Source of the DNA: a virus
IMG/VR virus record: IMGVR_UViG_3300046028_003758
Location: 1 to 43,465 of that record
Reading direction: 5' to 3' (one strand)
DNA length: 43,465 nucleotides
Part shown: one piece after another, positions 9,026 through 28,460 of the stretch
Layout: each line of letters begins with the position of its first letter
How positions within the stretch are numbered: position 1 is the stretch's first letter
Notes under the pieces: model-generated
Database searches by the model: none
What the model was told of the DNA's origin: nothing
What the model saw: the letters and a program-made list of their open reading frames with translations, nothing else
Translations under genes and position numbers: made by a program

Positions 9026-9991
9026 ATGGCTAAATTACAGAGTAGTGAAATAGTAGGTGTTGCTAATAGACCTGCAACAATATGTTCAAATACGATGTGC
9101 ATTTGGTTTGACACAACAAATTTAAAAACGGTTATTTCCTATTGTGGATATAGTGGAGCAGGTACTTGGTCAGTAGGGGGTGCACTGATAACGGCAAGAG
9201 GCAGATTAGGTGGTGCAGGTACACAAAATGCAGGTATTGCTATGACGGGTTTTACAAATATAAATGTAACATGTACTGAAGAATACAATGGTGCTACATG
9301 GGCAGTAGGGGGTGCTGTTATAACTGCAAGAAACCACCCCGCAGGTGCAGGAACACAGAATGTTGGCGTTTTATTTGGTGGTTTTAATGGGGCTCATCTC
9401 TCATGTACTGAAGAATACGATGGTACATCTTGGTCAGCAGGAGGTGCAATGATAATAGCAACTCATCTACATATAGGTGCAGGTTCACAGAATGAGTCAC
9501 TTTCATCAGGAGGTTATGTAAACGGCCCTCAATTATGTACAGAAGAATATAATGGTACAAGTTGGTCAGTAGGGGGTGCATTAATTAACAATAGAAGTTA
9601 TTCAGCAGGAGCAGGTACACAGAACTCAGGTTTAATTATTGGTGGTAGGATTGCAGGTAATGTTATGGTATCATGTACAGAAGAATATAATGGTACATCT
9701 TGGTCATCAGGAGGGGGTTTAATAACTGCAAGACGTAGTATGGGTGGGTCAGGTTTGCAAAATGAAGCATTGTCAGCAGGTGGTTATACTGCGGGTGCAA
9801 GAATTGCATGTACCGAAGAATATAATGGTACATCTTGGTCAACTGCAAGTCCTGTTACAGTGGCTACTTGGTATGGCGCAGGAGCAGGTACACAAGGAGA
9901 AACTATTGTTTTTGGTGGTTATGTGAGTTCGGTTGTAGCATGTACCCAAGAATACAATAAACCATTAGCAATAATAGATTCAACACAATAA
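9026..9991 (+). CDS. Six-bladed kelch-like propeller protein, copy 1
   Basis: A 321-residue protein. A 45-residue head (AKLQSSEIVGVANRPATIC, then MCIWFDTTN and a VISYCGYSG strand) is followed by six repeats of about 44 residues. Each repeat reads roughly W-S-x-G-G-A-x-I-T-A-R, a variable loop, G-A-G-T-Q-N, G-G, a second variable loop, then C-T-E-E-Y-N-G-T. This W/GG/TEEY pattern is kelch-like, and six repeats make a six-bladed propeller. Propellers of this kind occur in fibre tips of marine phages and probably bind glycans or proteins on the host. The gene has its own TATTTATA element and starts a tandem of three paralogues. It has no shaft, so it must attach via its head or a partner. The binding target is unknown. 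Confidence 0.75.
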   Translation: MAKLQSSEIVGVANRPATICSNTMCIWFDTTNLKTVISYCGYSGAGTWSVGGALITARGRLGGAGTQNAGIAMTGFTNINVTCTEEYNGATWAVGGAVITARNHPAGAGTQNVGVLFGGFNGAHLSCTEEYDGTSWSAGGAMIIATHLHIGAGSQNESLSSGGYVNGPQLCTEEYNGTSWSVGGALINNRSYSAGAGTQNSGLIIGGRIAGNVMVSCTEEYNGTSWSSGGGLITARRSMGGSGLQNEALSAGGYTAGARIACTEEYNGTSWSTASPVTVATWYGAGAGTQGETIVFGGYVSSVVACTQEYNKPLAIIDSTQ

Positions 9992-9992
9992 T

Positions 9993-10946
9993 ATGGCAAA
10001 ATTACAAAGCACAGAGATAGTAGGTGTTGCAAATAGACCTGCAACAATATGTTCCAATAGTGTTTGTATTTGGTTTGATACAACTAATACTAAAATAGTT
10101 TATTCATATTGTGGGTATAGCGGAGCAGGTGTCTGGTCAGCAGGGGGTGCAATGATAACTGCAAGATATGGTTTAGCAGGGGCGGGAACTCAAAATGAAG
10201 GACTTGCAGCAGGAGGTGTTACTGTAACATGCACAGAAGAATATAATGGTACGTCTTGGTCAGTAGGGGGTGCGTTGATAACAGCAAGGTATTATTTAGC
10301 AGGAGCAGGTACACAAAATACAGGACTTGTAGCAGGAGGTTATAATGGTGCAAGTCTTTCTTGTACAGAAGAGTATAATGGTACATCTTGGTCAGTAGGT
10401 GGGGCATTGATAACTGCAAGATATTATTCAGCAGGAGCAGGTACACAAAATATAGGTCTTGTAGCGGCAGGTTATTCAAATGCAGCTTCAGTATGCACAG
10501 AAGAATACAATGGCACATCATGGTCAGCAGGGGGTGCATTGATAACAGCGAGGGGTTATTTGAGCGGTGCAGGAACACAGAATGAAGGATTTGTTGCAGG
10601 AGGTTATAGTCCTACAACATTATCATGCACAGAAGAATATAATGGTACGTCTTGGTCAGCAGGTGGTGCTTTAGCAACTGCAAGATATGGTTCAGCAGGA
10701 GCAGGTACACAAAATGAAGGACTCGTAGCAGGAGGTTACTCATCAGGAATTGGCAATCTTTCATGTACCGAAGAATACAATGGCACATCTTGGTCAGCAG
10801 GAGGGGTGTTGATAACAGCAAAGCACTATATGGCTGGAGCAGGTATACAAGGTGCAGGACTAATAGCGGGAGGTTATTCAAATGCAGCAGTAGCCTGCAC
10901 CGAAGAATACAATAAAGCATTAGCAATAATAGACTGTATTAAATAG
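9993..10946 (+). CDS. Six-bladed kelch-like propeller protein, copy 2
   Basis: A 317-residue tandem paralogue beginning one base after the stop of copy 1. It has the same head (AKLQSTEIVGVANRPATIC) and again exactly six blades. Blades differ mainly in two places: just after 'ITAR' (YGL, YYL, YYS, GYL, YGS, HYM) and just after 'AGG' (for example YNGAS, YSNAA, YSPTT). This is what is expected if those loops face the ligand. The final blade ends CTEEYNKALAIIDCIK instead of NGTSW, marking closure. It is the most regular of the three copies and the closest to the propellers of the big fibre at 16601. Confidence 0.75.
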   Translation: MAKLQSTEIVGVANRPATICSNSVCIWFDTTNTKIVYSYCGYSGAGVWSAGGAMITARYGLAGAGTQNEGLAAGGVTVTCTEEYNGTSWSVGGALITARYYLAGAGTQNTGLVAGGYNGASLSCTEEYNGTSWSVGGALITARYYSAGAGTQNIGLVAAGYSNAASVCTEEYNGTSWSAGGALITARGYLSGAGTQNEGFVAGGYSPTTLSCTEEYNGTSWSAGGALATARYGSAGAGTQNEGLVAGGYSSGIGNLSCTEEYNGTSWSAGGVLITAKHYMAGAGIQGAGLIAGGYSNAAVACTEEYNKALAIIDCIK

Positions 10947-10956
10947 AATATACAAT

Positions 10957-11931
10957 ATGGCAAAATTACAGAGTAGTGAAGTTGTTGGAGTTGCAAATAG
11001 ACCTGCAACAATATGTGTAAATACGGTATGTTTATGGTTTGATACAACAAATTTAAGACCAATGGCATCTTATTGTAAAAGAAGTGGAGCGGGAGTTTGG
11101 TCAGCAGGGGGTGCATTGATAACTGCAAGATATGGTGTCGGTGCAGCAGGAACACAAAATGAAGGACTTGCTGCTGGTGGGTATGTAAATACTGCTGCAG
11201 GTGTTAGTTGTACAGAAGAATATAATGGCACAAGTTGGGCGGTAGGTGGTGCATTAATAGTGGGTAGAATTTATTTAATCGGTATTGGTTCTCAAAATAG
11301 TGGACTTGTTGCGGGTTGTTATACGACAGGTGCATGTACTGAAGAATATAATGGTACATCTTGGTCAATTGGAGGTGTATTAATAACAGGCCGATATGGT
11401 ATAGGTGGGGGTGGAACTCAAAACGAAGGATTAGCAATAGGCGGTGTTTCAACAACAAACTTAGCATGTACAGAAGAATATAATGGTATAAGTTGGTCAA
11501 CAGGTGGCGCATTAGCAACAGCAAGAGGATGTACAGCAGGTGCAGGAAGTCAGAATAGCGGATTAGGGTTTGGTGGTCGTACTAATGCAGGTGTAAACGT
11601 AACATGTACAGAAGAGTATAATGGAACATCATGGTCAGCAGGTGGTATATTGATAAATAGTCGTAGATTTGCTGCAGGATTTGGAACACAAAATGAAGCA
11701 TTAACTACAGGCGGAAATGCTGTAGGCAATTTATTAACATGCACTGAAGAATATAATGGTACAAGTTGGTCAACGGGTGGCTCATTAGCAACAGCAAGAT
11801 ATTTAGTTAGTGGAGGAGGCTCGCAAGGTTCGGGATTTATTGCTGGTGGATATGTTTCAGCAAATCCTGGAGTTGCTTGCACTGAAGAATACCTAAAATC
11901 ATCATACACAATAGTAGATTGTATCTTATAA
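10957..11931 (+). CDS. Six-bladed kelch-like propeller protein, copy 3
   Basis: A 324-residue third tandem paralogue, with the same head (AKLQSSEVVGVANRPATIC) and six blades. It is the most diverged: blades 2 and 3 have GRIYLIGIGSQ and GRYGIGGGGTQ, and one GG is GC (VAGCYTTGA). The loops are again the variable parts. It ends CTEEYLKSSYTIVDCIL. The gap to copy 2 is 10 bases, so the three are transcribed together. Divergence rather than identity among the tandem copies suggests they are kept for different binding specificities. It may be mounted on the virion as an alternative tip; direct evidence is lacking. Confidence 0.75.
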   Translation: MAKLQSSEVVGVANRPATICVNTVCLWFDTTNLRPMASYCKRSGAGVWSAGGALITARYGVGAAGTQNEGLAAGGYVNTAAGVSCTEEYNGTSWAVGGALIVGRIYLIGIGSQNSGLVAGCYTTGACTEEYNGTSWSIGGVLITGRYGIGGGGTQNEGLAIGGVSTTNLACTEEYNGISWSTGGALATARGCTAGAGSQNSGLGFGGRTNAGVNVTCTEEYNGTSWSAGGILINSRRFAAGFGTQNEALTTGGNAVGNLLTCTEEYNGTSWSTGGSLATARYLVSGGGSQGSGFIAGGYVSANPGVACTEEYLKSSYTIVDCIL

Positions 11932-16600: not shown

Positions 16601-19600
16601 ATGAGAATAGACCAAATAGAATTATCAGGTTCGTTATTTGTCACATCAAGTGCGTCAATTATATTAGGACAGACTAAGATATCCTCTGACAATAACGGGT
16701 CAATATCTTTTACAAATGTTAATAACCCAACTCAAAAAGTAATAGGTTCATATTCGGGTTCATTCACAGGTAGCATAAAATTACCTACAGTACCACAAGG
16801 AGCAGCAGAAACAAATATACTTCTTGTAAACGGTAGTGGTAATGTTGTCTATAGAAGCAACCTATCTTTAACAGGTGCTCAAGGTAATCAAGGTACTCAA
16901 GGAACACAAGGAACACAAGGAACAGTAGGTACACAAGGTTTCCAAGGCAATCAAGGTGCTCAAGGTAACCAAGGTATTCAAGGAACAGTAGGTACACAGG
17001 GTTTCCAAGGCAATCAAGGCCCGACAGGAATTCAAGGTACAGTAGGAACACAAGGAAGTCAAGGAGCAAATATAGCATCCACTGAAACAAGACCATCTCC
17101 CATAAACGCAGACCAAATGTGTTTATGGTTTGACACCACAAGTAAGATGCCAATGGTTTCTTATTGTATTAACACATCATTAGTAGGTGCTTGGTCAGCA
17201 GGGGGTGCATTGATAACAGGAATAAGTGATTTAGCAGGAGCAGGGACACAGAATGCAGGACTTGTTGCAGGAGGAAGGACAAGTGCTGTTGTAACATGCA
17301 CAGAAGAATACAACGGTACATCATGGTCAGCAGGAGGGGCATTGATAACAGCGAGGAGACTTCTAGCAGGCGCAGGAACTCAAAATGCAGGACTTATAGC
17401 AGGAGGTACAACAAATGCAGCAGTGTCTTGTACCGAAGAATACAATGGCACATTATGGTCAGCAGGAGGGGGATTAATAACAGCAAGATGGGGTTTAGCA
17501 GGAGCAGGTACACAAAATGCAGGACTTGTAGCAGGAGGTTATACAAATGTAAATTTAGCTTGCACCGAAGAGTATAACGGCACATCTTGGTCAGCAGGAG
17601 GGGCTTTGATAACAGCAAGACGAGAATTGGCAGGAGCAGGGACGCAAAATGCAGGTCTTGTAGCAGGAGGTTACGAAAATTTGGAATTATCCTGCACCGA
17701 AGAGTATAATGGTACGTCTTGGTCAGCAGGCGGTGCATTAATAACGGCAAGAAGATATTTAGCAGGAGCAGGAACACAAAACGCAGGTCTTGCAGCAGGA
17801 GGTTTTACAACTGTAAATGTTTCTTGCACAGAAGAATATAATGGAACATCTTGGTCAGCAGGAGGTGCATTGATAGTAGTAAGAAGACAACTATCGGCTG
17901 CTGGTACTCAAAACGCAGGACTTGTAATTGGTGGTCTTGTAAGCGCAAATGTCTCATGTACAGAAGAATACAATGCACCTACCGAAATCGTTGACCGTAG
18001 TTTAGACTCATCATATAATACAGCAGAATATTCTGAAAGACCTAACTTAGTTGATGCAGGAATGTGTATGTGGTATGATAAGACAAACAATATGCCAATG
18101 ATTTCCTACAAGAGCAGCACACTATTGATTGGTGCTTGGTCTGCGGGAGGTGCATTGATAACAGGAAGAACAGATATAGGAGTAGCAGGCACACAAAATG
18201 CAGGACTTGCAGCAGGAGGTGCTACAAATATAGATTTAGCCTGCACTGAAGAATATAACGGCACAAGTTGGTCAGCAGGAGGTGCTTTGATAACAGCAAG
18301 ATTTGGTTTAGCAGGGATGGGTACACAAAATGAAGGACTTGTAGCAGGGGGTTATGTATCATGTAGTTCTACTGAAGAATACAATGGTATTTCTTGGTCA
18401 GCAGGAGGGGCATTAATAACAGCAAGATGGGGTTTAGCAGGAGCAGGGACACAAAATGCAGGACTTGTAGCAGGAGGTCAAAATATATCATGTACTGAAG
18501 AATATAATGGTACATCATGGTCAGCAGGAGGTGCTTTGATAACAGCAAGACTCCGTACAGCAGGAGCAGGTACACAGAATGCAGGACTTATAGCAGGAGG
18601 TACAACAAATGCAGCAGTGTCTTGTACCGAAGAATACAATGGCACATTATGGTCAGCAGGAGGTGCTTTGATAACAGCAAGATTTGGTTTAGCAGGAGCA
18701 GGGACACAGAATTCAGGACTTGCAGCAGGAGGTTATGGGAGTGCAGATGTAACATGTACCGAAGAATATGATGGAACATCTTGGTCAGCAGGAGGGGGAT
18801 TAATAACAGCAAGAAGATATTTAGCAGGAGCAGGGTCACAAAATGCAGGACTTGCAGCAGGAGGTCAATCTAACGCAACTCTATCTTGCACAGAAGAATA
18901 CAATGCACCAACCGAAATCGTTGACCGTAGTTTAGACTCATCATATAATACAGCAGAGTATTCAGATAGACCTTATATAGCACAAACAGGAATGTGTATG
19001 TGGTTTGACTCTGTGAATAGAAGACCTATGGTGTCTTATTATGGATTTGAAGGTATTGGTTCTTGGTCAGCAGGTGGTGCATTGATAACGGGAAGAAGCT
19101 TTGTAGCAGGAGCAGGTACACAGAATGAAGCATTTGCAGCAGGAGGAAGTGGCCCTCTAAGTTGCACAGAAGAATATAATGGAACATCTTGGTCAGCAGG
19201 TGGTGCATTATCAGTAGCAAGATATTCAATAGCAGGAGCAGGGACACAAAATTCAGGACTTGCCATTGGCGGTAGATTTGATTATATTTGCACAGAAGAA
19301 TACAATGGCACATCTTGGTCAGTAGGTGGGGCAATGATAGTAGCAAGAGATAATATTGCAGGAGCAGGTACACAGAATGCAGGACTTGCTATGGGAGGTT
19401 TATCATGTACAGAAGAATATAATGGCACATCATGGTCAGCAGGGGGTGCAATGATAACAGCAAGAAGCCATCCATCAGGAGCAGGAACACAGAATGCAGG
19501 ACTTGCAGCAGGAGGAAGGACAAGTATATTTGTAACTTGTACAGAAGAATACAATGGCACATCTTGGTCAGTAGGGGGTGCGTTAGCAAATGCAAGGTAT

Positions 19601-19852
19601 TTTATAGAAGGAGCAGGAACACAGAATGAAGGACTTGTTTTTGGAGGTTTTAATGGTGCATGTCTTTCTTGCACTGAGGAATACGATGGTACATCTTGGT
19701 CGGCAGGAGTTGCATTAGCAACAGCAAGATATGGTATGGGTTCTGCGGGAACACAAAATGCAGGACTTGCATTTGCTGGTAATTTTGGCGCAAATCGTTC
19801 ATGCACCGAAGAATATAATAAACTACTTCAAATAGTTGATTGCTTCTTATAA
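16601..19852 (+). CDS. Large fibre: collagen-like shaft plus three six-bladed propellers
   Basis: A 1083-residue fibre. It has an anchor of type MRIDQIELSGSLFV (shared with 19944-21671), a beta linker ending YRSNLSLTGA, and a Gly-X-Gln collagen shaft (about residues 92-156). Three kelch-like propellers follow, of six blades each: 17189-17973, 18134-18903 and 19060-19819. Each propeller is preceded by an 'RP.....MC.WFD.....M.SY' strand like the head of the 9026 family. The first two end with an identical connector, APTEIVDRSLDSSYNTAEYS. This is propeller duplication within one gene: a shaft carrying three heads. The probable role is host recognition at the distal end of a tail fibre. No S74 chaperone is visible, so folding must rely on something else. 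Confidence 0.8.
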   Translation: MRIDQIELSGSLFVTSSASIILGQTKISSDNNGSISFTNVNNPTQKVIGSYSGSFTGSIKLPTVPQGAAETNILLVNGSGNVVYRSNLSLTGAQGNQGTQGTQGTQGTVGTQGFQGNQGAQGNQGIQGTVGTQGFQGNQGPTGIQGTVGTQGSQGANIASTETRPSPINADQMCLWFDTTSKMPMVSYCINTSLVGAWSAGGALITGISDLAGAGTQNAGLVAGGRTSAVVTCTEEYNGTSWSAGGALITARRLLAGAGTQNAGLIAGGTTNAAVSCTEEYNGTLWSAGGGLITARWGLAGAGTQNAGLVAGGYTNVNLACTEEYNGTSWSAGGALITARRELAGAGTQNAGLVAGGYENLELSCTEEYNGTSWSAGGALITARRYLAGAGTQNAGLAAGGFTTVNVSCTEEYNGTSWSAGGALIVVRRQLSAAGTQNAGLVIGGLVSANVSCTEEYNAPTEIVDRSLDSSYNTAEYSERPNLVDAGMCMWYDKTNNMPMISYKSSTLLIGAWSAGGALITGRTDIGVAGTQNAGLAAGGATNIDLACTEEYNGTSWSAGGALITARFGLAGMGTQNEGLVAGGYVSCSSTEEYNGISWSAGGALITARWGLAGAGTQNAGLVAGGQNISCTEEYNGTSWSAGGALITARLRTAGAGTQNAGLIAGGTTNAAVSCTEEYNGTLWSAGGALITARFGLAGAGTQNSGLAAGGYGSADVTCTEEYDGTSWSAGGGLITARRYLAGAGSQNAGLAAGGQSNATLSCTEEYNAPTEIVDRSLDSSYNTAEYSDRPYIAQTGMCMWFDSVNRRPMVSYYGFEGIGSWSAGGALITGRSFVAGAGTQNEAFAAGGSGPLSCTEEYNGTSWSAGGALSVARYSIAGAGTQNSGLAIGGRFDYICTEEYNGTSWSVGGAMIVARDNIAGAGTQNAGLAMGGLSCTEEYNGTSWSAGGAMITARSHPSGAGTQNAGLAAGGRTSIFVTCTEEYNGTSWSVGGALANARYFIEGAGTQNEGLVFGGFNGACLSCTEEYDGTSWSAGVALATARYGMGSAGTQNAGLAFAGNFGANRSCTEEYNKLLQIVDCFL
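16874..17068 (+). repeat. Collagen-like repeat, shaft of the 16601 fibre
   Basis: Gly-X-Gln triplets in the reading frame. Part of the DNA (about 16990-17060) is almost identical to the end of the collagen tract of the S74 fibre near 4680-4745, so shafts have recombined between genes. Confidence 0.85.
17384..17469 (+). repeat. 86-base exact repeat, copy A (propeller 1 of the 16601 fibre)
   Basis: Identical over 86 bases to 18578-18663. It spans the end of one blade and the start of the next (GLIAGGTTNAAVSC to TLWSAGG). Recent duplication or gene conversion. Confidence 0.85.
18578..18663 (+). repeat. 86-base exact repeat, copy B (propeller 2 of the 16601 fibre)
   Basis: Partner of 17384-17469. 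It lies at a different blade number (4/5 instead of 2/3), so the exchange was not between equivalent blades. Confidence 0.85.
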
Positions 19853-19853
19853 A

Positions 19854-19904
19854 AATTTTGCGAAGAAGAACCAACATAAAAAAACACATGTACAATATAA
19901 ACAA
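19854..19904 (+). repeat. 51-base direct repeat after the 16601 fibre, copy A
   Basis: Starts two bases after the fibre stop and matches 21672-21722 with two mismatches. It marks the 3' edge of a duplicated fibre cassette. Confidence 0.85.
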
Positions 19905-19915
19905 AACAAAATATC

Positions 19916-19923
19916 TATTTATA
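19916..19923 (+). promoter_or_regulatory. TATTTATA promoter-like element
   Basis: The octamer is 20 bases before the ATG at 19944, just after direct-repeat copy A. Role inferred from recurrence. Confidence 0.5.
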
Positions 19924-19943
19924 ATTAATAAACTCTACATTTA

Positions 19944-21671
19944 ATGAGAATAGATAAAATCCAATTATCAGGGTCTTTACTAATATCTTCAAGTTTATCT
20001 CGAAGTCCTTTACGAATAAATGATAACTATTTGTATATAAACCCACAAGGTAACATAGGAATAGGAACTACAAATCCTACCTCAAAATTAGTAGTAACAG
20101 GTAGCATAGCAGTACAAGGACAATTAAGAGCAACAACATTATCAGGCTCATTCACAGGAAGTATTAAATTACCTACTATACCACTAGGAACATCGGAGAC
20201 AAATATAGTATTGGTAGATGGTAGTGGTGGTTTAGTATATAGAAGCAACCTATCTTTAACAGGAGCTCAAGGAACACAAGGAACACAAGGAACACAAGGA
20301 ACACAAGGTACTCAAGGTATTCAAGGTACAGTAGGAACACAAGGATTCCAAGGCAATCAAGGTGCTCAAGGAACACAAGGTACTCAAGGTACTCAAGGAA
20401 CTCAAGGAATTCAAGGAACACAAGGAACTCAAGGAACTCAAGGTAACCAAGGTGCTCAAGGTGCTCAAGGTACTCAAGGTGCAACAGGAGTACAAGGTAC
20501 TAATGGCACTGTAGGTACTCAAGGTTTCCAAGGTAATCAAGGAACAACGGGTTTACAGGGCACTACAGGAGCTCAAGGCACTCAAGGAATACAAGGAACA
20601 GCAGGTACTAACGGAGCTCAAGGTTTTCAAGGTATCCAAGGAACAGTAGGTACACAAGGTTTCCAAGGAAGGCAGGGCCCAACAGGAATTCAAGGAACAG
20701 CAGGTACTAACGGAGTACAAGGATTTCAAGGAGCAGCAGGAGGTACAGGCGCACAAGGAAGCCAAGGAGCAAATATAGCATCATCGGCATCAAGACCATC
20801 TCCTATAAATCTAAATACAATGTGTTTATGGTTTGATACTGCTCTTTCATTACCTATGGTATCTTATTGTGGATATGGAGCAGGTACTTGGTCAGCAGGT
20901 GGTAACTTAATAACAGGAAGACAACAATTAGCAGGTGCAGGAACACAGAATGCAGGACTTGCTTTTGGTGGTGGTGCAAATACAGAAGAATACGATGGTA
21001 CATCGTGGTCAGCAGGTGGTAACTTAATAACATCAAGATTTGGGTTAGCAGGTGCAGGAACACAAAATTCAGGACTTGCCTTTGGGGGGTCTTCTACTTT
21101 AACCTGCACAGAAGAATACAACGGCACATCTTGGTCAGCAGGAGGTGCATTGATAACAGGAAGAGTTCTATTAGCAGGAGCAGGAACTCAAAATGAAGGG
21201 CTTGCTTTTGGTGGTACTGTATCGGGGTTAGGAAACATATCATGTACAGAAGAATACAATGGTACATCTTGGTCAGTAGGAGGGGCTTTGATAATAGCAA
21301 GATGTGCTTTAGCAGGAGCAGGGACACAAAATTCAGGACTTGCCTTTGCGGGGGTTTTTACTTTAACCTGCACAGAAGAATACAACGGCACATCTTGGTC
21401 AGTAGGAGGTTTATTAATAACGGGAAAAAGATGTTTAGCAGGGGCAGGAACACAGAATGCAGGACTTGCCTTTGGGGGGTATCCCAATGGTCTTTGTACA
21501 GAAGAATACAATGGTACATCTTGGTCAGCAGGGGGTGCATTAGCAACAGCAAGATATACATTAGCAGGAGCAGGAACACAGAATGAAGGACTTGCCTTTG
21601 GAGGTTCGGGTAATGTTACTTGCACTGAAGAATATACTAAACCTTTTACAATAGTAGATAGAATCTTATAA
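19944..21671 (+). CDS. Fibre: long collagen-like shaft plus one six-bladed propeller
   Basis: A 575-residue paralogue of the 16601 fibre. The anchor is MRIDKIQLSGSLLIS. It is followed by a segment with YINPQGNIGIGTTNPTSKLVV, the 'GNVGIGT..P..KL.V' phrase common in phage fibres. The shaft (about residues 107-276) is the longest in the window. One propeller of six blades follows (about 20886-21642), with 'GGNLITG', 'GGALITG' and 'GGALIIA' variants. It ends CTEEYTKPFTIVDRIL. Compared with 16601, the shaft is more than twice as long but there is one head instead of three. It likely offers an alternative receptor specificity. The gene is bracketed by copies of a 51-base repeat. Confidence 0.8.
   Translation: MRIDKIQLSGSLLISSSLSRSPLRINDNYLYINPQGNIGIGTTNPTSKLVVTGSIAVQGQLRATTLSGSFTGSIKLPTIPLGTSETNIVLVDGSGGLVYRSNLSLTGAQGTQGTQGTQGTQGTQGIQGTVGTQGFQGNQGAQGTQGTQGTQGTQGIQGTQGTQGTQGNQGAQGAQGTQGATGVQGTNGTVGTQGFQGNQGTTGLQGTTGAQGTQGIQGTAGTNGAQGFQGIQGTVGTQGFQGRQGPTGIQGTAGTNGVQGFQGAAGGTGAQGSQGANIASSASRPSPINLNTMCLWFDTALSLPMVSYCGYGAGTWSAGGNLITGRQQLAGAGTQNAGLAFGGGANTEEYDGTSWSAGGNLITSRFGLAGAGTQNSGLAFGGSSTLTCTEEYNGTSWSAGGALITGRVLLAGAGTQNEGLAFGGTVSGLGNISCTEEYNGTSWSVGGALIIARCALAGAGTQNSGLAFAGVFTLTCTEEYNGTSWSVGGLLITGKRCLAGAGTQNAGLAFGGYPNGLCTEEYNGTSWSAGGALATARYTLAGAGTQNEGLAFGGSGNVTCTEEYTKPFTIVDRIL
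20262..20771 (+). repeat. Collagen-like repeat, shaft of the 19944 fibre
   Basis: About 170 residues of Gly-X-Gln and related triplets, encoded by 9-base units such as GGAACACAA and GGTACTCAA. Triplets with Pro are rare (one GPT), unlike animal collagen. Confidence 0.9.
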
Positions 21672-21722
21672 AATTTTGCGAAGAAGAACCAACATAAAAA
21701 AACAAATATACAATATAAACAA
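21672..21722 (+). repeat. 51-base direct repeat after the 19944 fibre, copy B
   Basis: Matches 19854-19904 with two mismatches. An 11-base core (TGCGAAGAAGA) recurs at 21909-21919 inside the end of the next gene, hinting at where the repeat came from. Confidence 0.85.
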
Positions 21723-21729
21723 CAATAAA

Positions 21730-21933
21730 ATGCCATCAAAAACAGAAAAACAACAAAAATTCTTTCAAATAGTAAAGGCCTACAAAGATAAGAAAATGTC
21801 AGCAGCAGAAGTAGGAAAGAATGTAGAAGATGCGGCTAAAGGTATGTCAAAATCACAAATAGAAAAATTTACTAAGTTAGTTAAGGAAATGATGGATTCA
21901 AAAAATTCTGCGAAGAAGACCCTACAAAAATAA
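21730..21933 (+). CDS. Small basic protein, 'PSKTEKQQKFF' family (DUF3008-like)
   Basis: A 67-residue basic protein. I chose the ATG at 21730: the frame is open further upstream, from a TTG at 21676, but that part falls in the duplicated 51-base repeat. The pattern is PSKTEKQQKFFQIVKAYK, then MSAAEVGKNVEDAAKGMS and IEKFTKL. It resembles the small 'P-[AS]-K-S-x-x-Q-Q-x-F' proteins (DUF3008-like) common in T4-like cyanophages and other marine phages. They are helical and Lys-rich; the function is not known, and DNA or virion association is plausible. The end of the gene contains the repeat core seen behind both fibre genes. Confidence 0.65.
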   Translation: MPSKTEKQQKFFQIVKAYKDKKMSAAEVGKNVEDAAKGMSKSQIEKFTKLVKEMMDSKNSAKKTLQK

Positions 21934-21989: not shown

Positions 21990-21997
21990 TATTTATA
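21990..21997 (+). promoter_or_regulatory. TATTTATA promoter-like element
   Basis: The octamer is 42 bases before the ATG at 22040, giving a longer A-rich leader than elsewhere. Role inferred. Confidence 0.45.
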
Positions 21998-22039
21998 GAT
22001 GATAAAGAAACATATTAATAAACTAAAAAATCAAAAAAA

Positions 22040-22390
22040 ATGTCTTTAGGTATTGAAAAATTAAAACCTGCAATTCAACATTTAGCTCAATTGATTTCTG
22101 CATCTACTAAAGTAGATGTGAATGGAAACGGTATAGTTGATACTTCTGAAATTTTCGGTATTGTACAAGTATTAGTATTCAAAGTGATTGCTATTTACGG
22201 AACATTACCTGCTGCTTTAGCAGAATTAAAGGATGTTGACTCTGTAGAGAGAGCTGAGTTAGTAAAGGTATTCAATGAAAACTTCGATTTATCAGATGAT
22301 GTAGTTGAGAGTTTATTAGAGGAGTGGTTTGTATTAATTGACCAAGTTATTACACTATCTTCAAAAACAGTAACTAAATTTTCAAAGTAA
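22040..22390 (+). CDS. Small protein with EF-hand-like Ca2+ loop, 116 aa
   Basis: An unrecognised 116-residue protein. Residues ~25-36 read DVNGNGIVDTSE, an excellent EF-hand/dockerin-type calcium loop (D-x-N-x-x-G-x-x-D-x-x-E). A hydrophobic stretch (IFGIVQVLVFKVIAIYG, about residues 38-54) follows, and then acidic helices. Its promoter-like element upstream and strong terminator downstream make it a stand-alone transcription unit, which usually means high or separately timed expression. It could be an abundant virion protein or a Ca2+-dependent fibre or baseplate factor. The hydrophobic segment could also be a buried helix or a membrane segment. No family name can be supported. Confidence 0.65.
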   Translation: MSLGIEKLKPAIQHLAQLISASTKVDVNGNGIVDTSEIFGIVQVLVFKVIAIYGTLPAALAELKDVDSVERAELVKVFNENFDLSDDVVESLLEEWFVLIDQVITLSSKTVTKFSK

Positions 22391-22427
22391 TCGTAAAGTA
22401 AGCAACTAAGAAGAAAACTAGATTAAG

Positions 22428-22454
22428 AGAACCCCATCTATGATGGGGTTTTTT
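22428..22454 (+). terminator. Rho-independent terminator
   Basis: A perfect 9-bp stem (22430-22438 with 22442-22450, loop TAT) followed by T. It closes the 22040 transcript before the neck and tail genes. Confidence 0.9.
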
Positions 22455-22468
22455 ATTATAATATAATA

Positions 22469-22476
22469 TATTTATA
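22469..22476 (+). promoter_or_regulatory. TATTTATA promoter-like element at the start of the neck-tail operon
   Basis: The octamer is right after the terminator and 43 bases before the ATG at 22520. Role inferred. Confidence 0.5.
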
Positions 22477-22519: not shown

Positions 22520-23677
22520 ATGGCAAACATCCCTATTTGGCCGGGTTCGGCATCATTCTTTCAAGGAGACACTCCCTATGGAACATATGATAATGAATAT
22601 GCATTTCAGCAAGATGCAGACATGATTGCAGATTGGTGTGCAAGGAGATTAGGCTACCCTATAGTGGATGTAGAATTACAACAATCAAACTTTTTTGCAG
22701 CATTTGAGGAGGCAGTAACTGAATATGGTTCTCAAGTAAATACTTATGTCAGTAGAGATAACTTGCTATATTTATTGGGAGTAAATACAGGTTCTCAAAG
22801 TTTAACTCAAGAGTATGTAGATGCTAACAATTCTTCAATATTCAAGTTATCAGAGCATTACGGAACACCTGTAGGTGTGGGAGGAAATGTTACATATTTC
22901 ACAGGTAGTTTACAAATACGGCAAGATAAACAAACATATGATTTATCTAAGGATACCTCAATTGCACTAGAATCAGGTTCATTTATCAATGGTAATTACA
23001 CAATAAGAAAAATACATCATTATCCAATACCTGCATTAGTAAGGTATCAAGACCCATACGGAGGTTCAGGATTAGGTACACAAGGATTAATAAATGGTTT
23101 TGAACTAGGAGGTTATACGGCTGCTGCAAGTTTCATGCTATATCCTTTAAATGCTGATTTACTTAGAGTGCAAGGAATAGAATTTAATGATTTAATTAGA
23201 AAGAGTGCATATAGTTTTCGTTTAGTAAATAATAGATTAACTATATTCCCAATACCTTTACGAGATACTACACTACACTTTGAGTATACTTTAAATAATA
23301 TGGAAAGTAATCCATTAAAACGGGGGAGAGGACGCATAAGCGATTACTCAAATGTACCATATAGCAACATGGTATACTCACGTATAAATGCAATGGGAAA
23401 ACAATGGATAAAAAAATATACATTAGCATTATCTAAAGAGATGCTAGGATATGTAAGAAGTAAATACAGTTCTATACCGATACCTGAATCAGATATTACA
23501 TTAAATGGTGATGCATTATTAAGTGCGGCAGAAGCAGAAAAAACATCATTAATTGAAGAGTTAAAAGAAATTCTAGACCAATTCTCAAGACAGAATTTAC
23601 TAGAAAGAAAAGCAGCTGAATCAGAAGCATTGCAAGTTGAAATGAGTAGAGTACCTTTAAGATTTTATATAGGATGA
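22520..23677 (+). CDS. Neck/head-completion protein (gp13-like by position)
   Basis: A 385-residue structural protein heading the order neck, gp14-like, gp15-like, gp18, gp19. Its N-terminal third has ADWCARRLGYPIVDVELQ and a following AFEEAVTEYGSQVN helix, a pattern I recall in neck-region proteins of marine T4-like phages. A beta-rich middle (IRKIHHYPIPALVRYQDP) and a C-terminal helical end (EELKEILDQFSRQN) follow. The T4 order places gp13 here, and the protein is larger than T4 gp13 (309 aa). Direct sequence likeness to T4 gp13 is not visible to me, so the name rests on synteny. It would close the filled head and take up the tail. Confidence 0.55.
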   Translation: MANIPIWPGSASFFQGDTPYGTYDNEYAFQQDADMIADWCARRLGYPIVDVELQQSNFFAAFEEAVTEYGSQVNTYVSRDNLLYLLGVNTGSQSLTQEYVDANNSSIFKLSEHYGTPVGVGGNVTYFTGSLQIRQDKQTYDLSKDTSIALESGSFINGNYTIRKIHHYPIPALVRYQDPYGGSGLGTQGLINGFELGGYTAAASFMLYPLNADLLRVQGIEFNDLIRKSAYSFRLVNNRLTIFPIPLRDTTLHFEYTLNNMESNPLKRGRGRISDYSNVPYSNMVYSRINAMGKQWIKKYTLALSKEMLGYVRSKYSSIPIPESDITLNGDALLSAAEAEKTSLIEELKEILDQFSRQNLLERKAAESEALQVEMSRVPLRFYIG

Positions 23678-27611: not shown

Positions 27612-28460
27612 ATGAATTTAGATACAAGTTATCCAAAGAAAGATGTTACTTCCGAAACGGAAAGTTCTATCGTAACTCAAGGAGACAAAGAAACTGTAGG
27701 ATACAGAATACCTACAGAAATTATAGACCTACCATCAAGAGGACTACTTTACCCAAAAGATAGTCCTCTTCATAGTGGTACTGTAGAGATTAAATATATG
27801 ACTGCAAAGGAGGAGGATATCCTAACTACAGAGTCTTATATTAAAAAAGGAATCGTAATCGATAAATTCTTAGAATCATTAATAGTCACTGAAGGTATAC
27901 GACTAGATGATTTACTAGTTGGTGACATCGATGCTATTACGGTTGCTGCTAGAATATTCGGATACGGTAGTGAATATGATGTTCATATTGAAACTCCATC
28001 AGGAAAGAAGCAGAGAGAAATTATTGATTTATCTGAAATAAGTTTAAAATACTTAGATGACCAATTTGTAGACACTGTTGGATTAAATGAATTTAAGTAT
28101 GAACTTCCATCATCTAAGGTTAGTATCACCTTTAAGATGTTGAAACAACTTGACCAAAAAAAGTTGCAAGAAGACATAGAAAAGAATAAAAAAATATTTA
28201 ACGGACTATCAAAAATATCTTCAACACAATTGAAACATTATATATTATCAGTAGATGGTAATTATGATGCTAAGTATGTTAGAGATTTTGTGGATAAGAA
28301 CGTATTAGCATCTGATGCGAGAGCTTTGAGAAAATATATTGAAGAAGTTCAGCCCGGTATAAATCTGTCAGTGGAGGTGGCAGATAAAGAAACAGGGGAG
28401 ACCTTTCGCATTAATGCTCCCATCGGGGTACAGTTTTTTTGGCCTGACATTAAGTCATAA
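27612..28460 (+). CDS. Tail/baseplate assembly protein, gp26-like (T4_baseplate family)
   Basis: A 282-residue cytosolic assembly factor. The family pattern is LPSRGLLYPKDSPLHSG, then VEIKYMTAKEEDILT, and a helical section with GDIDAITVAARIFGYGSEY. That is the PF12322 (T4_baseplate, gp26) style: 'PSkG..Y......g.i.ir.mT..de.iL...l...g..id.ll...I.......dl..gD...i....R...yG..Y'. It sits just before the tape measure, where tail assembly chaperones belong. Its 3' end overlaps the next frame by 47 bases around a T run, which may allow a frameshifted longer product. Name from family pattern; exact role inferred. Confidence 0.75.
   Translation: MNLDTSYPKKDVTSETESSIVTQGDKETVGYRIPTEIIDLPSRGLLYPKDSPLHSGTVEIKYMTAKEEDILTTESYIKKGIVIDKFLESLIVTEGIRLDDLLVGDIDAITVAARIFGYGSEYDVHIETPSGKKQREIIDLSEISLKYLDDQFVDTVGLNEFKYELPSSKVSITFKMLKQLDQKKLQEDIEKNKKIFNGLSKISSTQLKHYILSVDGNYDAKYVRDFVDKNVLASDARALRKYIEEVQPGINLSVEVADKETGETFRINAPIGVQFFWPDIKS

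Follow-up and report, generated by a model that had tools for sequence, protein, structure and literature searches.

Known EF-hands function mostly as pairs, and a Glu at position 12 of the loop serves as a bidentate ligand and is typical of sites selective for Ca2+. Many phages need Ca2+ for infectivity or stability, though which of their proteins binds the ion is often not known. Among the accessory proteins of phage T4, Soc and Hoc are small late head decoration proteins, possibly abundant and non-essential to the core plan, and fibritin, the neck whisker, is a long trimeric coiled coil with a C-terminal foldon. A protein of Acinetobacter phage phiAC-1 has been annotated with an EF-hand (PMC5795418), and another phage study reports a screen of structural proteins for EF-hand signatures in which none was found (PMC5889276). 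Here we analyze a 43,465-base virus sequence, referred to in its full length as the window. It covers part of the genome of a T4-like phage, and among its products is a small protein that has one EF-hand loop.

The EF-hand gene and its loop

The window opens with the 3' end of the gp23 major capsid gene (positions 3-158, + strand; the last 51 codons of a gene cut by the window start), identified by a translation near-identical to the C-terminus of gp23 (PF07068) in a 102-kb relative, G001. This is followed by a PhoH gene (254-910, labeled by eye), a stretch of about 20 kb with fibre genes and diverse cargo, the EF-hand gene, and neck and tail genes. The gene after the EF-hand gene (22520-23677, + strand) encodes a gp13-like neck or head-completion protein of 385 aa, which matches phrog_211 'head-tail adaptor Ad2' (E 3e-13) and, at 38%, the 'putative head completion protein' of Flavobacterium phage immuto; a sheath gene (25103, phrog_23) and a tube gene (27036, phrog_4542) lie further downstream. 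Since the nearest named phages in the gp13 comparison were Microcystis phage Mel-JY01 (51%), followed by the Flavobacterium phages 'immuto' (38%), and the Mel-JY01 and immuto groups were again the top matches for the sheath, the phage host is probably a member of the Bacteroidota. Mel-JY01 itself is recorded with a cyanobacterial host, unlike the host proposed here.

The EF-hand gene (22040-22390, + strand) encodes a protein of 116 aa that is predicted to be all-helical. A first-pass annotation had described this protein as carrying a perfect EF-hand loop, together with a promoter-like element and a terminator; the ORF, loop, element and terminator were all located where it had placed them, and the loop proved to match the consensus and to be unique in the window. 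Homologues with 64-100% identity were found in 18 other IMG/VR contigs out of 2.9 million, where they make up four sequence groups with identities of about 97-100, 82, 76 and 64-65%; a second scan using one homologue and a DNA-pattern scan yielded no further contigs. Counts given below as x/19 refer to the window and these 18 contigs. Pairwise dN/dS values were 0.04-0.22 in 17 of 21 pairs, those that were computable. As judged from these comparisons, the EF-hand gene is real and under purifying selection.

The loop, DVNGNGIVDTSE (residues 26-37; 22115-22150, + strand), agrees with the EF-hand consensus at all ligand positions. It is the sole match to a PROSITE-type EF-hand pattern among the 42 window genes and the 312 six-frame ORFs of at least 40 aa; shuffled proteins gave an expectation of 0.08 matches per window, and a stricter pattern was matched 0 times in 400 shuffles. 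In an alignment of 10 members, D26, N28, G31, D34 and E37 are invariant and residue 30 is N or D, giving the 12-residue layout D1-N3-N/D5-G6-V/I8-D9-E12. Acidic or polar ligands thus occupy loop positions 1, 3, 5, 9 and 12, with Gly at 6, and position 8 is hydrophobic (V or I in 10/10 rows). Residues 27, 29, 32, 33, 35 and 36 are all variable in the same alignment, and fixed ligands among varying neighbors are the pattern expected of a metal site that is in use.

All 10 aligned members match Pfam EF-hand_1 (PF00036), with a best E of 1.3e-4; the window protein itself scores below the curated cut-offs of EF-hand_1 (12.6 vs 25.4 bits) and EF-hand_7 (14.7 vs 30). Solved EF-hand proteins gave weak sequence matches (best E 0.21). 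The PROSITE-type pattern detected no second canonical loop in the chain, and comparison of the N- and C-terminal halves detected no internal EF-hand duplication (hhalign probability 0.2 of 100). An EF-hand pair could therefore form only between two chains. Because there is only one loop and the two halves are dissimilar, we term the protein EF-hand-like and do not place it among the paired EF-hand proteins.

The single loop, with no canonical partner and no internal repeat, also speaks for an explanation in which it fixes a helix-loop-helix turn or binds Mg2+, so that Ca2+ would neither regulate nor stabilize the protein, and in which the terminator and gene position serve transcription insulation only. 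We consider this unlikely, given that the Glu at position 12 is invariant and that the ligands are kept over about 35% sequence divergence.

Loops of comparable appearance were seen in two other places. Phage immuto encodes an 843-aa hypothetical protein with the EF-hand-like loop DINNDGKVDKTD upstream of its terminase gene (L054, ORF 249-2777), and a 418-aa ORF in another gp13 contig (L158, 5541-6797) carries two dockerin-like loops, DVNMDGAVNVND and DINLDGQVNVND.

Predicted structure

An AlphaFold2 model built with ten relatives (pLDDT 73, pTM 0.56) consists of five helices, spanning residues 4-22, 35-53, 56-64, 69-82 and 86-115, with the EF loop between the first and the second. Mean pLDDT around the loop is low, at 55 for residues 21-30 and 65 for residues 31-40. 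The model of a 65%-identical homologue has a similar layout (pLDDT 72), in which the first helix reaches into the loop as far as residue 28 (pLDDT <50 there). Foldseek searches of the PDB with both models and of BFVD with one model returned no match at E <= 0.001. The best VIA-align hits (Z 5.0) were to helical proteins such as Smac, in a range that is uninformative for helical models. Since the models are of moderate confidence, the missing fold match proves nothing.

The second helix is very hydrophobic: the 19 residues starting at residue 38 average 2.08 on the Kyte-Doolittle scale. It combines high mean hydrophobicity with a low hydrophobic moment. These properties would suit a small membrane-associated late protein, of a lysis-timing or holin-like kind, whose membrane segment would be helix 2 (residues 38-56), just after the EF loop. 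Within that segment, however, K48 and Q43 are invariant; AlphaFold2 predicts five helices, and Pfam, PHROGs and NCBIfam contained no holin family that matched. A strong terminator of its own is, moreover, unusual for a holin. We regard a membrane role as the least probable of the explanations weighed here.

Transcription and translation signals

A late-promoter-like element, TATTTATA, lies on the + strand at 21990-21997, 50 nt upstream of the start codon of the EF-hand gene, and the form TA[TC]TTATA starts 49-52 nt ahead of the ATG in 19/19. The first-pass annotation had given the gene a promoter-like element of its own; the element is present but is not private, preceding 12 genes of the window. 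Thirteen of its 16 + strand copies sit 7-51 nt before a gene, with sites at 223, 1302, 2277, 9008, 16575, 19916, 21990, 22469, 25059, 27013, 28664, 28678 and 42207. The copy at 22469-22476 (+ strand) belongs to the gp13-like gene, and the sheath and tube genes, both late structural genes, also carry it. TATTTATA is a shared late-type element, and the idea of a special promoter for the EF-hand gene was dropped on account of this common use. A scan for sigma-70-type promoters gave no excess over shuffles.

The element is the exact reverse complement of TATAAATA, the T4 late promoter (PMC2984593). When octamers were counted over the 70 bases preceding genes or ORFs, TATTTATA was the commonest in the window (11/39 ORFs, vs 1 for TATAAATA), in the relative G001 (102 kb; 17/95 vs 2) and in Flavobacterium phage immuto (10/29 vs 3), and tied for first in G003 (8/59 vs 1); it preceded 3/13 in Mel-JY01 and 0/17 in Rhodothermus phage RM378. 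With the annotated starts of immuto, 13/13 TATTTATA sites fall 12-76 nt before a gene. A T4 late region has 13 TATAAATA sites, 8 of them before genes, and two TATTTATA sites, one of them before a gene. This phage lineage may therefore use an inverted late promoter, and the motif is perhaps as interesting as the EF-hand protein itself. A literature text search on TATTTATA as a phage promoter returned no title about phage late promoters.

The EF-hand gene is followed by a strong intrinsic terminator (22426-22454, + strand) with a 13-bp stem, a 3-nt loop and a T tail, at -17.5 kcal/mol (z -3.4); 0/200 shuffles were as stable. In 19/19, a hairpin of -12 to -16 kcal/mol and a T-rich tail lie after the stop codon, and the stem bases differ between the sequence groups. 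A comparable terminator (181-209, + strand), with a perfect 13-bp stem (-14.5 kcal/mol) and a T tail, follows gp23. Scanning both strands of the window for hairpins with T tails gave 10 sites (7 on the + strand, 3 on the - strand), of which 7 are inside genes and one, on the - strand, mirrors the EF-hand gene terminator. Perfect stems just after a gene were limited to two, at 181-209 (gp23) and 22429-22451 (EF-hand gene). A simple terminator scanner run over 14-33 kb returned 10 sites vs 6.9 expected and missed the terminator of the EF-hand gene.

The earlier claims of a strong terminator in a sequence with almost no others are thus borne out within the window. It had further been suggested that such isolation is shared only with the capsid gene, which is true of the window but not of the 102-kb relative G001, where three more + strand hairpins were found. 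The same scan detected 8 + strand hairpins there, of which two are inside long ORFs, one follows gp23, two overlapping ones follow the EF-hand gene, and the remaining three, at 28355, 82813 and 95251, are not within any long ORF; the 3 - strand hairpins are all inside long ORFs. The gp23 and EF-hand genes keep their terminators in G001, though they are not alone there.

The translation start region (22025-22039, + strand) is A-rich, with 13 of 15 bases being A, including those at -3 and -6, and with no Shine-Dalgarno sequence seen; it is the most A-rich of the 42 window genes. An A at -3 is reported to favor initiation in Flavobacterium (PMC6847099). The predicted mRNA fold around the start is mid-ranked (20th of 42). 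In codon likeness to sheath and tube the gene ranks 3rd of 42, and in G001 its likeness to gp23 ties for 6th-7th of 91; as the two reference genes, sheath and tube, come out no higher than 10th and 25th, the codon index says little and was dropped as a sign of expression. The gp23-like isolation by a terminator, the A-rich start and the sharing of TATTTATA with sheath and tube together suggest strong late expression.

Neighborhood, distribution and possible function

The gene downstream of the EF-hand gene is gp13-like in 17/19, although one of these 17 (L005) has a gp13 reading frame that breaks off after 113 codons. A 132-aa ORF intervenes in the other two contigs, with gp13 next in the one that was checked. 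The upstream gene is variable and differs between clades, encoding a repeat-rich fibre-like protein, a basic protein of 65-67 aa or a small product resembling a lipoprotein; in two contigs, the DNA fetched contains no ORF upstream. In one clade, comprising 6 of the 18 contigs (L008 and L024-L028), the upstream product has 72-94 aa and a lipobox-like N-terminus (KTLLKLLVVTVVLSSCS and variants). Superinfection-exclusion lipoproteins have a lipobox N-terminus, and this protein is a possible member of that type.

In the window, the slot between PhoH and gp13 (254-22040) is filled by about 20 kb of genes that, by eye, resemble those for fibres, glycosyltransferases and oxygenases. The cargo of other gp13 contigs is quite different here, so that a variable island adjoins the neck gene. 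Immediately before gp13, various loci carry fibres and methyltransferase- or glycosyltransferase-like genes (by eye). Five window genes (9026-11931 and 16601-21671), three of them tandem paralogues, are built from one repeat, variants of GGALITAR..LAGAGTQN.GLAAGG...CTEEYNGTSWS, and are probably interchangeable fibre or adhesin modules. A short repeat, AATTTTGCGAAGAAGAACC with variants, closes successive genes at 19853-19885, 21672-21704 and about 21904-21932, and recurs at the EF-hand gene junction in several relatives; it could be a recombination point for the swapping of cargo genes. Because the slot before gp13 holds such varied cargo, the neighborhood is weak evidence for a role in the neck.

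To place the gene more widely, tblastn with two different members was run against 50,697 phage records and found no relative, and no family in Pfam, PHROGs or NCBIfam exceeded threshold for the window protein. Searches of phage records, these three family databases and solved-structure sequences thus gave no homologue of known function. A weak PHROGs match, phrog_8384, touches residues 63-96 in 8/10 members (best E 0.017); it was not used, since among 7 records only the two carrying the EF-hand gene responded. A full-text literature search returned no publication about this protein, as judged by title and the start of the abstract.

We also examined the loci of the best 80 of 589 gp13 relatives. 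Two were set aside as family members, and three as near-copies or repeat contigs; the 75 other loci contained no + strand ORF matching the EF profile better than E 0.8; 4 of these loci have <100 bases, and 11 have <600 bases, upstream of gp13. The profile found nothing in 12 related phage records or in 395 genomes of the order to which one of two Flavobacteriales metagenome-assembled genomes (MAGs) belongs, both searches being run without a positive control, and a scan of genome contigs gave no match. The two MAGs, likewise searched without a positive control, gave one weak match (E 0.001) inside a 365-aa ORF, by eye the host GTPase YchF, which was rejected as chance. A core T4-like protein overlooked by annotation was rejected, there being no relative in the 75 other gp13 loci. 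Being found in one phage lineage, the gene looks like a fixed accessory of that lineage, and such a distribution argues against a core part of the virion.

This restricted distribution and the location in the variable PhoH-gp13 slot would equally suit a soluble, abundant late protein that stays out of the virion and binds a host or phage target, with a structural or Ca2+-sensing loop and a role in host control, progeny protection or superinfection exclusion. The lipobox-like upstream protein of one clade (6/18 contigs) points the same way, but the upstream gene differs between clades, and the capsid-like transcription layout and fixed place beside the neck gene count against such a protein. 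We regard this as possible, though less probable than the explanation that we favor.

That explanation, which we hold tentatively and rate slightly short of an even chance, is an abundant late helical accessory of the virion or its assembly, with a single Ca2+ site and encoded next to a neck gene. It draws on the ligand-specific conservation, the EF-hand_1 matches and the predicted helices flanking the loop; on the promoter spacing and terminator in 19/19 and the hairpins after both gp23 and the EF-hand gene in G001; and on the A-rich start, the gp13-like neighbor in 17/19 and the presence of TATTTATA on late structural genes. Against it stand the absence of a homologue of known function or fold in the searches above, the lineage-specific distribution and varied cargo slot, the extra hairpins of G001, the mid-ranked mRNA fold, the sub-cut-off Pfam scores, and the hydrophobic helix 2, which could be a membrane segment. 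In order of probability, the virion or assembly accessory is followed by the soluble non-virion protein, then by the purely structural loop, and last by the membrane or lysis protein.

In the proposed model for the virion or assembly accessory, the EF-hand gene would be transcribed as its own unit from the late-type TATTTATA and ended by the strong terminator, a layout seen elsewhere in the window only at the capsid gene. The terminator would also shield the low-copy neck operon downstream from the strong EF-hand transcript. The protein, an accessory of the head or neck region, would fold or assemble in the Ca2+-poor cytoplasm, and its site would load Ca2+ after release of the particle, or during assembly. 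The bound Ca2+ would then lock helices 1 and 2 and stabilize the contacts of the protein. A more specific version, which we think improbable, is a new family in which a single EF-hand acts as a Ca2+ switch in an abundant virion protein, apo and competent for assembly in the host cytoplasm, where Ca2+ is low, locked by Ca2+ in lake or sea water, and unlocked again at genome delivery on contact with the Ca2+-poor interior of the cell.

A small late phage protein such as this, with a capsid-like transcription layout, one clean EF-hand and no relatives known, is a tractable candidate Ca2+ binder; if absent from the virion, it would still be an uncharacterised conserved late phage protein. Named decoration proteins gave no sequence or fold match in PHROGs and Foldseek, and the likeness to T4 Soc and Hoc would be a functional analogy, for which this protein is a candidate only. 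The T4 wac gene occupies the same slot, directly upstream of a gp13-type neck gene, but encodes 487 aa vs 116 aa here, and in place of the fibritin coiled coil the window protein is predicted to form five separate helices of 9-30 residues. The EF-hand protein of phiAC-1 is also a phage-encoded prediction, from a different phage and in a passage that gives neither function nor sequence. With EF-hand_1 proteins, the window protein shares the 12-residue loop and a predicted helix after it, and it differs in having one canonical loop, no partner in the chain and a score below the curated cut-off. It represents a new protein family in which a site of known type occurs, unusually, as a single copy.
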